The notes beneath the pieces were generated by a model that was not told the origin of the DNA, made no database searches, and saw only the letters and a list, made by a program, of their open reading frames with translations. A program made the translations under genes and the position numbers. This document shows, piece after piece, positions 21,692-62,542 of a stretch of 64,000 nt of DNA. The DNA lies in assembly GCF_900129445.1 (NCBI RefSeq), contig NZ_FQVT01000001.1:248001-312000 (forward strand). Direction: 5' to 3'. Source of the stretch: Salegentibacter echinorum (GTDB taxonomy: Bacteria > Bacteroidota > Bacteroidia > Flavobacteriales > Flavobacteriaceae). Numbering within the stretch: position 1 is the first letter of the stretch; each line of letters begins with the position of its first letter.

Positions 21692-22232
21692 CGGTTTATT
21701 TATATTTTAAGGCTTTAAATTGAATAAATAGCTGCAGGATGGAACATATTCCTTTTAAGTTGCTATTTTTTACTCAGCATCTTGCCGGTGTTTTGCGTCA
21801 AAGATATAAATTTCAAAATTACACAGCGGCAGGATATGGTTTGGCATCAATGGAGTCCAAAACGTTATAATTAATTTTTTTGATTCAGCTGAAATTACCA
21901 ATTTTTAAATCAGTGAGGTCTCGACTGCGCTCGACCTTACATAAGACATTGTATTTTAGTTAATTATAATGTCACTTCGAGCGCAGTCGAGAAGTTTTTC
22001 TATGAATTATTTAATTCTATAATTATTTAGAATGTTATTATTTTGCATAGTGAATTCTAATTTAGCAGAACTAATTTATTCATTAGAAGAGAAAAGTTCC
22101 GCTATCAATCGGAATTGATTCTTTAATCTTCACCTGTTTCCGATCTATAAAATCATCATAAAAATTTTTAAAATTTAATACTTGGTTGCGATTTTCGTAA
22201 ATTGCAGCTTCAAAATTCAGAGATAATTAATA
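21692..22232. other. Long divergent intergenic region between DUF4197 and icmF
   Basis: No ORF or structured RNA was recognised here. A wide inverted repeat at 21919-21995 is listed separately. The DNA is otherwise AT-rich, and a promoter for icmF should lie near 22170-22210, where TTGGTTGCGATTTTCGTAAATTG gives only a weak match. Confidence 0.4.
21919..21995. repeat. Wide inverted repeat, GTCTCGACTGCGCTCGA type
   Basis: TCTCGACTGCGCTCGA (left arm, about 21920-21935) is the exact reverse complement of TCGAGCGCAGTCGAGA (right arm, about 21976-21991). The arms are about 40 bp apart around AT-rich DNA. The element is a common Bacteroidota noncoding repeat; its meaning is unknown. Confidence 0.7.
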
Positions 22233-25200
22233 ATGGAACAACAAAAACCATATACCCCTAAAAATAAAATACGAATTGTAACCGCTGCCTCCCTTTTTGA
22301 TGGTCACGATGCGGCAATAAATATCATGCGTCGAATAATTCAGGCTACCGGCGTAGAGGTGATTCATCTTGGTCACGATAGAAGTGTAGAAGAAGTTGTG
22401 AATTGCGCCATTCAGGAAGATGCACAGGCAATTGCCATGACTTCATATCAGGGCGGGCATACCGAATATTTTAAATATATGTACGATCTGCTTCAGGAGA
22501 AAAACGCAGGTCATATTGCTATTTTTGGCGGCGGCGGCGGCGTAATCCTTCCGGAGGAAATAAAGGAGTTAATGGATTATGGAATCACCAGGATTTATTC
22601 TCCAGACGATGGCCGGGAAATGGGGTTGCAGGGTATGATTAATGATATGGTGAAAAGAGCGGAAAGCCCATCCCCAACCCTTCCCAAAGGGAAGGGAGTG
22701 GAAGACGGGCTTAAGAATAAAGACGTCAACACGATTGCAAGATTAATAAGTATTGCAGAAAATAATCAGGAAGAATACCAGAAAATAGCTAAAGAATTTA
22801 ACTTTAACTCCTCCCCCTTGGGGAGGTCGGGAGGGGCTTGTCCCGTATTAGGAATTACTGGAACTGGCGGTTCCGGAAAATCCAGTTTGGTAGATGAATT
22901 GGTACGTCGGTTTTTAAGTGATTTTCCGGAGAAAAATATTGGGATTGTGTCAGTAGATCCTTCTAAACGGAAAACCGGTGGCGCGCTTTTGGGAGACCGA
23001 ATTAGAATGAATTCCATCAACAACGAACGGGTGTATATGCGTTCCCTGGCTACAAGGCAATCTAACCTGGCGCTTTCTAAATACGTAGCCGAAGCCGTTG
23101 AGGTCTTGAAAATCGCCGGTTATGATCTTATTATTTTAGAGACATCTGGGATAGGGCAGAGTGATACTGAAATTATGGATCATTCTGATGTTGCTCTATA
23201 TGTGATGACTCCTGAATTTGGTGCCGCTACCCAACTTGAAAAGATCGATATGCTCGATTTTGCCGATTTAGTGGCCATTAATAAATTTGATAAACGCGGT
23301 GCCCAGGATGCTTTGCGTGATGTGAAAAAACAGTACCAGCGCAATCATCTGTTATTCCATGAAGATGCAGAGAAATTACCGGTTTTTGGCACCATCGCAT
23401 CTCAGTTTAACGATCCCGGTATGAACACGCTGTATCGTCAAATAATGGATAAGATTGCTGAAAAAACTGATAGTGACCTAAATTCTACTTTTGAAATTTC
23501 TGCGGAAATGAGCGAGAAAATCTTTGTGATCCCGCCAAAAAGAACCCGCTATCTTTCAGAAATTGCCGAAAATAACAGAAGTTATGACGAGAAAGCAACA
23601 AAACAAGCCGAGGTTGCTCAAAAACTCTACGGTGTTTTTAAAACCATAGAATCGGTTTCGGGATTAGACCTAACCGATAAACAGGAACAATATTTAGATA
23701 AAAACGGCTTAAATCAGGATGAAATTTATGAGTATGCTGAAGCATCGCAAAAAGATTTTCTAAAATTGCTTTTTGCTGAATTCGACCGGGTGAAGATGGA
23801 TTTAGATCCTTATAACTGGGAAATGATCCAGGCCTGGCAGGAAAAGGTGACTAAGTATGTAGAACCGGTTTATTCATTTAAAGTAAGGGATAAAGAAATA
23901 AAGATAGACACGCATACCGAGTCATTGTCCCACACTCAAATTCCTAAAGTTTCCCTGCCAAAATACAAAGCCTGGGGCGACATTTTAAAATGGTGTTTAC
24001 AGGAAAATGTTCCCGGGGAATTTCCATACACCGCAGGGCTCTATCCCTTTAAACGCCAGGGTGAAGATCCTACCCGGATGTTTGCCGGGGAAGGCGGGCC
24101 AGAGCGTACCAATAGACGTTTTCATTACGTAAGTATGGGACTGCCTGCAAAAAGGCTTTCTACCGCTTTCGATTCGGTTACCCTTTATGGGAATGATCCA
24201 GACGAACGCCCAGATATCTACGGAAAAATAGGGAATTCAGGGGTTTCTATTTGCTGTTTGGACGATGCTAAGAAATTATATTCAGGATTTGATCTTGCCG
24301 ATAAAATGACTTCAGTAAGTATGACCATTAATGGTCCTGCGCCTATGTTGCTCGGTTTTTTTATGAATGCTGCGATAGACCAGCAATGTGAAAAATACAT
24401 TACAGAACATCAACTTGAAGATAAGGTTGAAGCTAAACTAAAGGAACTTTATGACGACCGGGATATTGAACGTCCTATTTATCAGGGAGATTTACCGGAA
24501 GGAAATAACGGACTCGGATTAATGCTTCTGGGAGTTACCGGAGATCAGGTATTGCCACAAAAAGAGTACAATAGAATTAAAGAAAACACTATTAATGTAG
24601 TGCGGGGAACGGTACAAGCCGATATTTTGAAAGAAGACCAGGCGCAAAACACCTGTATTTTTTCTACGGAATTCGCCTTGCGTTTGATGGGCGATGTGCA
24701 GGAGTATTTTATTAAAGAAAAGGTAAGGAATTTTTATTCGGTTTCCATTTCAGGCTATCACATTGCCGAAGCCGGTGCCAATCCTATTACGCAACTCGCC
24801 TTTACGCTGGCCAATGGCTTTACCTACGTAGAATATTATTTAAGTAGAGGAATGGATATTAATAAATTTGGTCCTAACCTCTCCTTTTTCTTTTCTAACG
24901 GAATTGATCCCGAATATGCCGTAATAGGTAGGGTTGCCAGGAAAGTTTGGTCTAAAGCTTTAAAACATAAATACGGTGCCAATCCAAGAGCACAGATGTT
25001 GAAATATCATATTCAAACTTCCGGAAGGTCGCTTCATGCCCAGGAAATTGATTTTAATGATATTAGGACTACCCTGCAGGCGCTATACGCCATTTATGAC
25101 AATTGTAATTCCTTACATACCAATGCTTACGATGAAGCGATTACCACGCCTACAGAAGCATCTGTAAGAAGGGCAATGGCTATTCAGTTAATCATTAATA

Positions 25201-25703
25201 AGGAATTAGGGCTTGCTAAGAACGAAAATCCTATTCAGGGTTCATTTATCATAGAAGAATTAACCGATCTGGTTGAAGAAGCCGTGTTAACCGAGTTTGA
25301 TAGGATCACCGAAAGAGGTGGTGTACTTGGCGCGATGGAAACAATGTACCAGCGTGGGAAAATCCAGGAGGAAAGCTTGCATTATGAAACTTTAAAACAC
25401 AACGGCGATTATCCTATAATTGGAGTGAACACCTTTTTAAGTTCTACAGGTTCTCCAACGGTAACTCCGGGGGAAGTAATTAGAGCGACGGAAAAAGAGA
25501 AACAACACCAGTTAAGAACTTTGAATACCTTGCATAAGGCCAAAGAAGATTCTGCCGAAGAAGCTTTAGAACGCATTAAAAAGGCATCAATTCAAAATGA
25601 AAATATTTTTGAAGAATTGATGGAAGCCACGAAAGTTTGTTCTTTGGGTCAAATCACCCAGGCCATGTTCGAGGTAGGCGGACAGTATAGAAGAAATATG
25701 TAA
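22233..25703 (+). CDS. icmF: Fused B12-dependent acyl-CoA mutase with G-protein chaperone
   Basis: The 1156-residue protein has three parts. Residues 10-140 bind B12, with the base-off motif DGHDAA (23-28, His25 as cobalt ligand) and GGGGGV. The P-loop GTPase chaperone spans about 205-430, with Walker A GTGGSGKS (210-217) and a [15 protein letters not shown] guanine-specificity loop. The mutase substrate domain covers about 570-1156. This is the order of IcmF isobutyryl-CoA mutases; related mutases acting on methylmalonyl-CoA have another order. The PduO-type adenosyltransferase at 56779 would supply adenosylcobalamin. Two palindromic repeats are inserted in frame (residues 145-159 and 192-203) in the linker between the first and second domain. 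Confidence 0.93.
22666..22710 (+). repeat. 45-nt palindromic repeat inserted in frame in icmF
   Basis: The core is CCCTTCCC-AAA-GGGAAGGG (22678-22696) with weaker outer arms GCCCATC/GACGGGC. It encodes [15 protein letters not shown] (residues 145-159), 15 codons exactly. The G/C-rich composition contrasts with the host gene. Confidence 0.75.
22808..22840 (+). repeat. Second palindromic repeat inserted in frame in icmF
   Basis: CTCCTCCCCCTTGGGGAGG then TCGGGAGGGG is the form of a GC-rich palindrome common between Bacteroidota genes. Here it lies inside a gene and encodes about [12 protein letters not shown] (residues 192-203), just before the Walker A strand of the G domain. Confidence 0.75.
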
Positions 25704-25704
25704 G

Positions 25705-25950
25705 CAGAGAGCCACTATTGCAAAGCTTTTCGCTTTGCAATAGTGTGCGAATCGCTTATCCCGAAGCGCGGAGCGACATCGGGATCTTTTCCTGTTCCAA
25801 TGTTCTCTGGAGCTTTTTGCTTTGTAATAGTGAGCGAATCCCTTACCCCGATGAGCAGAGCGACATCGGGATTTTTTTTGTTTCCAATATTTTTTGAAGC
25901 TTTTAGCATTTTGAAATACGTGCAAATCATTTATTCCGAAAAAATGAAAT
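25705..25950. repeat. Tandem palindromic repeat, three units of about 87 bp
   Basis: Unit 1 begins near 25727, unit 2 near 25815 and a decayed unit 3 near 25901. Each has TTTTxGCTTTGxAATAGTG, GCGAATC, and the palindrome CCCGA(T/A)G...GAGCGACATCGGG, then TTTCCAAT. A hairpin at 25713-25745 (CACTATTGCAAAGC arm) starts the array right after the icmF stop and may also end its transcription. There is no coding potential of its own. Confidence 0.75.
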
Positions 25951-26004: not shown

Positions 26005-26487
26005 CTATTCAGGATCATCGGTATTAAATGGATTATCGAATGGGATATCATCATCGGGGTCTTTATCGTCATAATTTACTCCTGGCGGATTGAATAAACC
26101 CCATCTATCGATGATATAATTCCACGGGTCGAAAGTTTTGACCCATTCAGCAAAAAGAATTCTAAATTCTTCAATTGTTTCTCGCAGTAGATGCAAGTAT
26201 TCCGTTTCTTTAAAGTTGGCAGCAAAAAAGTGATTACAAGACACATAAATATCACGCGCACTCTTACGAATTATTGCGGCATTTTCCATTTGTAGATCAT
26301 ATAAATCGGCTCCCATAGCTCCGGCAATTTTCGCCGGTAGCCTAAGGGCGTCGTCCATCATAAAGCCTCCGGTACTTTTTAACATTTCGTCGTCTTCAGG
26401 AATTAAATCGACAATTCTATGTACCATTTGTAAGATTTCTTCTGCCTTTTGGTAGAGAGGTTCTTTCCTAAAATTTACATTTTTCAT
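26005..26487 (-). CDS. Helical-bundle protein with acidic tail, paralogue A
   Basis: I do not recognise a named family for these 160 residues. Four predicted helices cover about 10-110 (QKAEEILQMVHRIVDLI, LPAKIAGAMGADLYDLQ, AIIRKSARDIYVSCNHFFAANF, EYLHLLRETIEEFRILFAEW), like a small four-helix bundle of the 23S-rRNA-intervening-protein/Avd kind. A highly acidic tail DDKDPDDDIPFDNPFNTDDPE ends it. It shares the E(Y/F)LHLLRxxIxxFxxxxxEW block and the LxLPxxIAxxxG block with the gene at 27313-27711, its paralogue on the other side of the MarC gene. Function unknown. Confidence 0.75.
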   Translation of the reverse strand: MKNVNFRKEPLYQKAEEILQMVHRIVDLIPEDDEMLKSTGGFMMDDALRLPAKIAGAMGADLYDLQMENAAIIRKSARDIYVSCNHFFAANFKETEYLHLLRETIEEFRILFAEWVKTFDPWNYIIDRWGLFNPPGVNYDDKDPDDDIPFDNPFNTDDPE

Positions 26488-27312: not shown

Positions 27313-27711
27313 CTATTTATATTGAGACATCCATTCCGAAGTCATTTTATCGAAAATATGAATCTCTTTTCGAAGCAGGTGTAGAAACTCAATTTCTTTT
27401 ACACCGCTTATTTCTATTTTTTTACATTGCAATTTGATGTTTCTGGCTGCCTTATGCAGTTTTTGAATATGCCGAAGCCTACACTGCGGATTAGAAGAAC
27501 CTACCACAGAAGCAATCCCTGGTGCAAGCTGCAGGGATTCAGTAACCAGGTTCCCGGCAAACCGATGTTGGTTTTTTGAAGAAATATCCATTTCATAAAC
27601 GTGCTTTCCATCACCAAAGTAGGACGCCACTGCGCGCGCTATTTTGAATATTTCGAGGGCTTTACGATAAACCGGTAAGTGATATGCGTTATTTGAAAAA
27701 GACTGCGACAC
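27313..27711 (-). CDS. Helical-bundle protein, paralogue B
   Basis: With the GTG start at 27711 the protein has 132 residues (MSQSFSNNAYHLPVYRKALEIF...). The alternative UUG at 27774 would add a hydrophobic stretch that has no match in the paralogue, so GTG fits better, but either is possible. Predicted helices are PVYRKALEIFKIARAVASYF, LVTESLQLAPGIASVVG, RLRHIQKLHKAARNIKLQCK and EFLHLLRKEIHIFDKMTSEW. The last block matches the gene at 26005-26487. There is no acidic tail. Function unknown. Confidence 0.7.
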   Translation of the reverse strand: MSQSFSNNAYHLPVYRKALEIFKIARAVASYFGDGKHVYEMDISSKNQHRFAGNLVTESLQLAPGIASVVGSSNPQCRLRHIQKLHKAARNIKLQCKKIEISGVKEIEFLHLLRKEIHIFDKMTSEWMSQYK

Positions 27712-27825
27712 GATAAAAATTTTATATAAAATTAGACAGAATAATTCAATTTTATCTTTAACTATTAAAGTCAAAATCGTACTTTGCTTTAATTTTAAAG
27801 ATATAAACCGGTAATTACCTTAAAA

Positions 27826-62301: not shown

Positions 62302-62373
62302 GGTCCGTTCGTCTAGGGGTTAGGACGCCAGGTTTTCATCCTGGTAACAGGGGTTCGATTCCCCTACGGACTA
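62302..62373 (+). tRNA. tRNA-Glu (anticodon TTC), copy 1
   Basis: 72 nt that fold into a standard cloverleaf. Acceptor arms GGTCCGT/ACGGACT, D arm TAGGGGTTAGGAC, anticodon stem CCAGG/CCTGG with loop TTTTCAT (anticodon TTC, Glu), T arm AGGGGTTCGATTCCCCT. CCA is not encoded. An identical copy follows 67 bp later. Confidence 0.95.
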
Positions 62374-62440
62374 CAAGAAACACAAATTATATTATTGTGT
62401 TAAAAAAAAGTCCCGAAAGGGCAATTTGAAATAAATTAAT

Positions 62441-62512
62441 GGTCCGTTCGTCTAGGGGTTAGGACGCCAGGTTTTCATCCTGGTAACAGGGGTTCGATTC
62501 CCCTACGGACTA
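62441..62512 (+). tRNA. tRNA-Glu (anticodon TTC), copy 2
   Basis: Identical in all 72 positions to the copy at 62302. The 67-bp spacer contains AACACAA/TTGTGTT and CCCGAAAGGG small hairpins that may guide processing. The two genes form one transcript with rpsT perhaps following. Confidence 0.95.
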
Positions 62513-62542
62513 CTTTTAAAAAATAATTAAAGTAAATTTGTA

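Follow-up and report, generated by a model that had tools for sequence, protein, structure and literature searches.

Mobile DNA that resides in frame within genes is usually held to need splicing, as with inteins and introns, or to be peculiar to few genomes, such as those of Rickettsia. The Rickettsia palindromic elements (RPE), about 150 bp long, are carried in frame by conserved genes that are unrelated to one another (PMC10969869). REPs are short hairpins, often arranged as inverted pairs beside gene ends, and they can supply stop codons and sometimes lie in frame in ORFs (PMC3733652, PMC6006769). The same papers describe the REP/BIME/REPIN systems with RAYT (REPtrons), in which copies flank a nuclease gene (PMC3733652, PMC6006769). 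EDxHD homing endonucleases are a known class (PMC3943268). The gene of Vsr/VsrA, a DUF559 repair endonuclease, is free-standing and linked to cytosine methylation, and the word stem "palindrom" is absent from the text that describes it (PMC12907096). In the open-licence literature, no description was found of DUF559 with palindromes or in in-frame cassettes, including tRNA synthetase insertions.

Two palindromes, E1 and E2, lie in the icmF gene of the window, the whole stretch of 64,000 nucleotides that was analysed. Their family resembles RPE in being palindromic and in frame in ORFs of conserved genes, but the repeat is 41–43 bp long, belongs to another phylum and also bounds endonuclease cassettes, and E1 replaces sequence. 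It has in common with REP/RAYT systems the short hairpin repeats, the inverted pairs, the position at gene ends and a nuclease gene flanked by copies. However, the repeat lacks the GTAG/CGTC foot, its copies flank DUF559 (Vsr-like) and not an HUH tyrosine transposase, and the cassette is itself translated within host genes. The cassettes are like the EDxHD enzyme I-Bth0305I in predicted fold, in fixed sites in conserved genes, in presence or absence among close relatives and in having some copies with altered conserved residues; they differ in lacking an intron or intein domain, in having palindromic inverted ends, and in a product that stays fused to the host protein, as far as can be judged from sequence. 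With Vsr/VsrA they share the DUF559 domain family. E1 and E2 may be a variant of the known in-frame palindromic repeats, and the whole system may deserve more. We think it probable that the icmF palindromes are stand-alone ends of a palindrome-endonuclease family, whose ends and cassettes live in coding linkers without splicing and whose presumed agent of mobilisation is DUF559.

The icmF product matches the NCBIfam IcmF model NF045497 with 1756 bits against a cut-off of 1500 (Table 1). Translated in frame over 22662–22703, E1 supplies residues 144–157, and its outer stem reaches approximately position 22711; the plus strand of E2 is translated in frame over 22803–22841 and supplies residues 191–203. 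Both follow the B12-binding match and precede the P-loop GTGGSGKSS (22860–22886, residues 210–218), with E2 inside the span of the MeaB match. The preliminary description, which had placed two GC-rich palindromes in frame in the icmF linker, is thus confirmed in position and in frame. The E1 hairpin is far stronger than that of shuffled sequence (RNA z −4.0, DNA z −4.3). Folding of E2 alone is unremarkable against shuffles (RNA z −0.07, DNA z −1.6), and the evidence for E2 is therefore its membership of the repeat family.

Table 1 Features of the icmF gene, with positions in the window.
Feature	Position	Strand	Remarks
icmF, fused isobutyryl-CoA mutase/GTPase	22233–25703	+	1156 aa, ORF open throughout
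B12-binding domain, Pfam PF02310	22272–22568 (residues 14–112)	+	5' of E1 and E2
E1, palindromic repeat, forward orientation (AAAGCCC...CCCTTCCCAAAGGGAAGGG)	22661–22703	+	R2 E 1e-7
Native linker between E1 and E2	22716–22801	+	also in relatives without palindromes
MeaB-type GTPase, Pfam PF03308	22737–23453 (residues 169–407)	+	match spans E2
E2, the repeat of E1 inverted	22802–22842	−	R2 E 7.5e-10

Membership was assessed with two models. R2 was built from nine intergenic copies of the window's genome, with E1 and E2 excluded, and the repeat has a consensus of approximately AAAAGCCCCTCCCAACCTCCCCAAAGGGGAGGA (41–43 bp). R1 also includes E1, E2 and two other coding copies, so its matches to these coding copies are circular, a defect from which R2 is free. 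When R2 is run over the window, the best match outside E1 and E2 has an E value of 1.5. R2 finds E1 on the plus and E2 on the minus strand, which makes them one repeat in opposite orientation, and not two different palindromes as had been proposed. On these matches, E1 and E2 are two inverted solo copies of one dispersed 41–43-bp repeat. An ordinary linker, made palindromic by chance or by quasipalindrome correction, would agree with the unchanged linker length at E1, and mutation is known to correct near-palindromes. However, the E values of both elements to the model of intergenic copies (Table 1), in matches that include the asymmetric AAAGCCCCTCCC arm outside the hairpin, leave this explanation with a very remote chance; in the window, ordinary protein sequence is excluded by the match to the intergenic family, as far as sequence can show.

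Within the window, neither element has a further copy at ≤3 mismatches (only the self-match; 100 shuffles gave 0). Across the window's genome, the search pattern was matched 8 times forward and 9 times in reverse, against 1 and 0 for the control; these matches correspond to 14 places after merging of self-complementary doubles. R1 gives 20 matches at E≤0.01. By our reading, 5 of them are coding, 8 start ≤3 nt from a stop codon and the remaining 7 lie elsewhere between genes, in agreement with the earlier remark that such palindromes also occur between genes. The five coding matches are E1, E2, a copy in IleRS, one at the start of a HemW-like gene and one at the end of a gene that matches metallo-beta-lactamase weakly. 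Two repeat copies, G000:C35:65203 (L121) and G000:C26:111 (L118), have near-identical flanks and one lies close to a contig end, which reflects either a duplicated region or an assembly edge.

Linker lengths were compared for 192 of the 199 scored IcmF rows, which fall in three classes. The stretch that begins with LQGM and ends with AEN is 41 aa long in the window; its median length is 43 aa in 67 relatives that share the linker type but lack the palindrome, and 39 aa in the 108 with the other linker type. For the stretch between AEN and PVL, the figures are 29 aa in the window against 22 and 24, respectively. Relative to the solved Cupriavidus IcmF (4xc6), the gaps amount to 2 residues in the E1 part and 6 in the E2 part. 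These lengths indicate that E1 stands in the place of the linker. Thus, the 15 and 12 added residues (27 in total) claimed before are not confirmed: E1 replaces linker of equal length and E2 adds about 6–7 residues. The pair flanks native linker with no DUF559 between, and no DUF559 cassette was seen in any IcmF sequence read. The middle icmF segment was considered as "cargo" between E1 and E2 and rejected, since relatives without palindromes possess it.

The distribution of the palindromes was followed over 202 IcmF sequences (80 from named genomes, 14 from congeners, 107 from the family and that of the window). The 107 come mostly from the best-scoring part of a search that found icmF in 219 of 299 genomes, which biases the sample towards close relatives, and one genome may be counted twice (the L070 and L156 linkers are identical). 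With labels set by eye from stem scores and borderline rows left unlabelled (L146, L021 and L096 at site 2), palindromes are present at site 1 in 15, at site 2 in 12, at either in 17 and at both in 10 of the 202. Three sequences without the AEN anchor (L214, L219, L225) were left out when stems and lengths were tabulated, so that these tables hold 199 rows. The check on relatives proposed in the preliminary description gave a divided answer: by our labels 182 of the 199 lack the palindrome, and 17 of these 182 nevertheless have LPKGK-like residues at site 1. We infer that these 17 rows are decayed copies. SPLGKLKGA-like residues are likewise kept at site 2 in some rows without a palindrome. 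Within the genus, a palindrome is found in 2 of 15 IcmF sequences and the cores differ, G012 having the core CCCCCGAAGGGGG at site 1.

A tree was computed for 97 of the 200 distinct domain sequences (palindrome-bearing rows, same-type linkers and 12 random others). It requires at least 12 state changes at site 1 and at least 11 at site 2, with 8 at each forced by well-supported branches; as few changes were needed by 18 of 500 shuffled labelings for site 1 and by about 190 of 500 for site 2. Palindrome-bearing IcmF sequences are scattered over the tree, and both repeated entry and repeated decay fit, although the LPKGK-like residues in 17 of the 182 non-palindromic rows favour some decay. A single ancient insertion of E1 and E2 in the ancestor of "SLAEN"-type IcmF, followed by many decays instead of repeated entry, would account for these residues and their counterparts at site 2, as well as for the identical recurrence of the two sites, their orientation and their frame. 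However, the number of state changes is hardly below that of shuffled labels, the window's IcmF is sister to nine congener rows that all lack the palindrome, and the different core of G012 lies at the same site in the same genus. We regard the ancient insertion as possible, if the less probable history.

Whether icmF copies most resemble other copies of their own genome was assessed with 18 icmF elements (16 testable) and 66 other copies; three duplicate icmF loci (L325, L342, L356) were dropped from this and from the stop-codon test below. The icmF copies are mostly nearer to copies elsewhere (16 tests, two clear, combined p 0.01). An own-genome origin was set aside on these mostly null results, and recent within-genome copying is not claimed.

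Solo copies in frame are also found in other genes: MetRS, LeuRS (near the KMSKS motif), HemW or, in one of two genera, a gene resembling it, TrpF and MenD (at the start), and a gene of HlyD type (at the end). At gene starts, part of a copy may escape translation if the gene uses a start codon further on. These observations support the Rickettsia-like residence of repeats in coding linkers that had been suggested. Among the 66 non-icmF copies, 25 (including at least one with a doubtful ORF, L333) begin −5 to +8 nt from a same-strand stop codon; places drawn at random in these loci, gene interiors included, gave a mean of 0.5. Selected RNA hairpins (terminators or mRNA stabilisers) that fall in genes by chance would explain this stop-codon adjacency. 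They would not be expected in frame deep within essential genes, where the repeat does occur; moreover, congeners differ in presence or absence at one site, and an endonuclease sits between inverted copies, all of which makes selected hairpins quite improbable as an explanation.

The repeat bounds larger insertions in some of its hosts. In the IleRS of the window's genome (G000), a copy adjoins a DUF559 domain, and in both G000 and G003 the IleRS cassette consists of repeat, DUF559 and inverted repeat, in frame throughout. The site measures 172 aa in G000 and 169 aa in G003 versus 35 aa in 12 congeners (of 14 matched; the length for one empty-site congener, L370, was read by eye). MetH of G000 is built alike, and its site is filled (178 aa) in 9 of 14 matched congeners and empty (43 aa) in 5. 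Several filled MetH copies have altered conserved residues with the frame open: W24 is lost in G008, G004 and G014, E60 is lost in G004, and EIEG replaces E-x-DG in G000 and G009, with KKQQ in addition in G000. Pfam scans of cassette-bearing IleRS, MetH, LeuRS, RecG and others gave no Hint/intein domain.

The association of repeat and cassette was quantified with R2 at 24 cassette loci of our choice in IleRS, LeuRS, MetH, RecG and HisD; gene-start and other loci and the phylum set were run afterwards. An adjacent match (E≤0.1) is present at 22 of the 24 loci (left 20, right 11, both 9), and 31 of the 32 adjacent matches there point inward. Among 25 other DUF559 loci of the family (gene-start fusions, three further loci and free-standing genes), only two adjacent matches were seen, both weak, one inward and one outward as judged by eye. 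When the nine of these that are not free-standing are added, the tally becomes 22 of 33. At 28 phylum-wide loci, again judged by eye, 9 adjacent matches point inward and 5 outward, the outward ones being weak (E>0.01), and both ends are found at two MetH loci and one LeuRS locus. The result at the 25 other family loci led to the rejection of one R2 repeat for all DUF559; the palindromes at free-standing and gene-start DUF559 genes differ from it in sequence. By these adjacent matches, the icmF repeat goes with one class of DUF559.

Hairpins of whatever sequence are enriched at DUF559 flanks. The flank sets consist of the best-scoring loci returned by the searches, and in the family 34 flanks in frames of ≥300 aa and 26 free-standing flanks exceed 883 control windows from the same loci (p 2e-18 and 1e-11, respectively). 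Phylum-wide, a stem score of 6 is reached by 69% of 58 DUF559 flanks (29 loci, including two, L429 and L447, from the window's own family) versus 6% of 815 windows (p 5e-21). The arms of these hairpins are mostly C/T-rich.

At E≤0.001, a threshold that admits weak partial matches, 72 of 149 family genomes have DUF559, in many instances within long frames; phylum-wide, 63 of 148 genomes have it at E≤1e-15. Hosts identified by HMM are IleRS, LeuRS, RecG, HisD, MetH, the starts of HemD and a PLP dehydratase, HsdR, HsdM, Type ISP and other methylases, and N-formylglutamate amidohydrolase. In other Bacteroidota (L427, L428, L430, L431, L433 and L438), DUF559 was seen in frame inside HsdR, HsdM, Type ISP, MmeI-like and other methylases. 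DUF559 is present in 29 of 32 R1-positive versus 43 of 117 R1-negative genomes (p 4e-8), and DUF559 in long frames (≥300 aa, E≤1e-12; 26 genomes) in 19 of 32 versus 7 of 117; the association is partly circular, because some R1 matches are cassette ends. The 43 R1-negative genomes with DUF559, and the 3 R1-positive genomes without it, count against the link.

In an alignment of 40 DUF559 domains, outside which the MetH copy of the window's genome lies, T17, E20, W24, D49, F50, E60, D62, G63 and others are invariant, and H41 and H66 are present in at least 90%; the E, D, H, D catalytic pattern may lie among these residues. An AF2 model (pLDDT 92.6) matches in Foldseek the Neisseria endonuclease-like protein 3hrl (E 1.6e-8) and the homing endonuclease I-Bth0305I (3r3p, E 7e-4), with a weak match to E. 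coli Vsr (1vsr/1cw0, E 0.18/0.30, probability 0.87). The body is thus predicted from the model to be an endonuclease of Vsr/EDxHD fold. A tree of 41 domains is grouped by host gene with 8 label changes, the least possible, and 10 of its 38 branches are well supported. This clustering suggests that jumps are rare; once in a site, DUF559 seems to stay there, as homing elements do.

The REP systems offer a different source of movement: an IS200/RAYT tyrosine transposase would mobilise the repeats in trans as REP-like elements, and the DUF559 cassettes would do no more than carry them or pick them up. REPs are known to share the size and the hairpin, to form inverted pairs, to adjoin stop codons and to have intragenic copies (PMC3733652), and RAYT-type genes are present in the window's family, many of them next to palindromes. 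However, these palindromes differ in sequence from the repeat, and the nine-copy consensus is without a GTAG or CGTC foot. The single PF01797 gene of G000, which is IS200-like in strength, has no R1 match (E≤0.1) within 1.5 kb, and a sample of 49 other PF01797 loci has 0 at the same threshold. On this sample of loci, RAYT/IS200 was rejected as the source of the repeat, and transposition in trans as a whole appears unlikely. Of the 20 RAYT-type loci (L267–L286), many have their own small palindromes (CGCGATTGCATCGCG, CGAGCGTCACGCTCG, CCAGACTCCGTCTGG and others), seemingly distinct REP families; in five of the loci none was seen. In G082, a 186-aa PF01797-like gene (weak match; L284:860-1534) with several GGGCGACTCGCGAGTCGCCC-type palindromes lies directly 3' of icmF.

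On the reading we prefer, that of a palindrome-endonuclease family, cassettes and solo ends would insert into conserved genes, at their ends or in linkers between domains, and displace some target sequence; at filled sites, some target residues are indeed replaced. The DUF559 endonuclease would start movement by cutting the empty allele or a new site, and repair would then copy the whole cassette or one palindromic end. Frame-breaking copies in needed genes would be lost, so that linkers and gene ends would accumulate copies. Cassettes, being translated and not spliced out, would persist only with an open frame because the host protein is still required, and the nuclease may decay later while the frame is kept. 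Solo copies of the E1/E2 type would be the smallest, non-autonomous products, later decaying into ordinary linker. No movement of repeat or cassette was observed.

A wider reading, to which we give slightly less than even credence, is that of a distinct Bacteroidota mobile element. In it, DUF559 between inverted C-rich palindromes would home into essential genes and be translated without intron or intein, solo ends would have spread to linkers (icmF, LeuRS, MetRS), termini and 3' gene ends, and other DUF559 lineages would have palindromes of their own. The cassette system may represent a route, not described before, by which mobile DNA resides in working proteins; its family would survive, by remaining translatable, in genes for tRNA synthetases, methionine synthase, RecG and restriction. 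It would indicate a nuclease behind short palindromes of a large phylum and explain odd linkers and extra domains of annotated enzymes, and the natural filled/empty pairs are available for direct insertion tests.

Other repeats are present in the window. Upstream of icmF, the intergenic stretch 21918–21993 has two copies of another palindrome (TCGAGCGCAGTCGAG, ≤2 mismatches; 0.04 expected by chance). Near icmF, the ORFs at 26005–26487 and 27313–27774 (minus strand), of 160 and 153 aa, have no Pfam match at E≤0.001; they presumably resemble four-helix-bundle proteins. Directly after icmF, at 25724–25897, are two tandem 87-nt repeats that are 80% identical, with CCCGA...TCGGG arms recognised by eye, and positions 62302–62513 hold a tandem pair of near-identical tRNA-Glu (TTC) genes.
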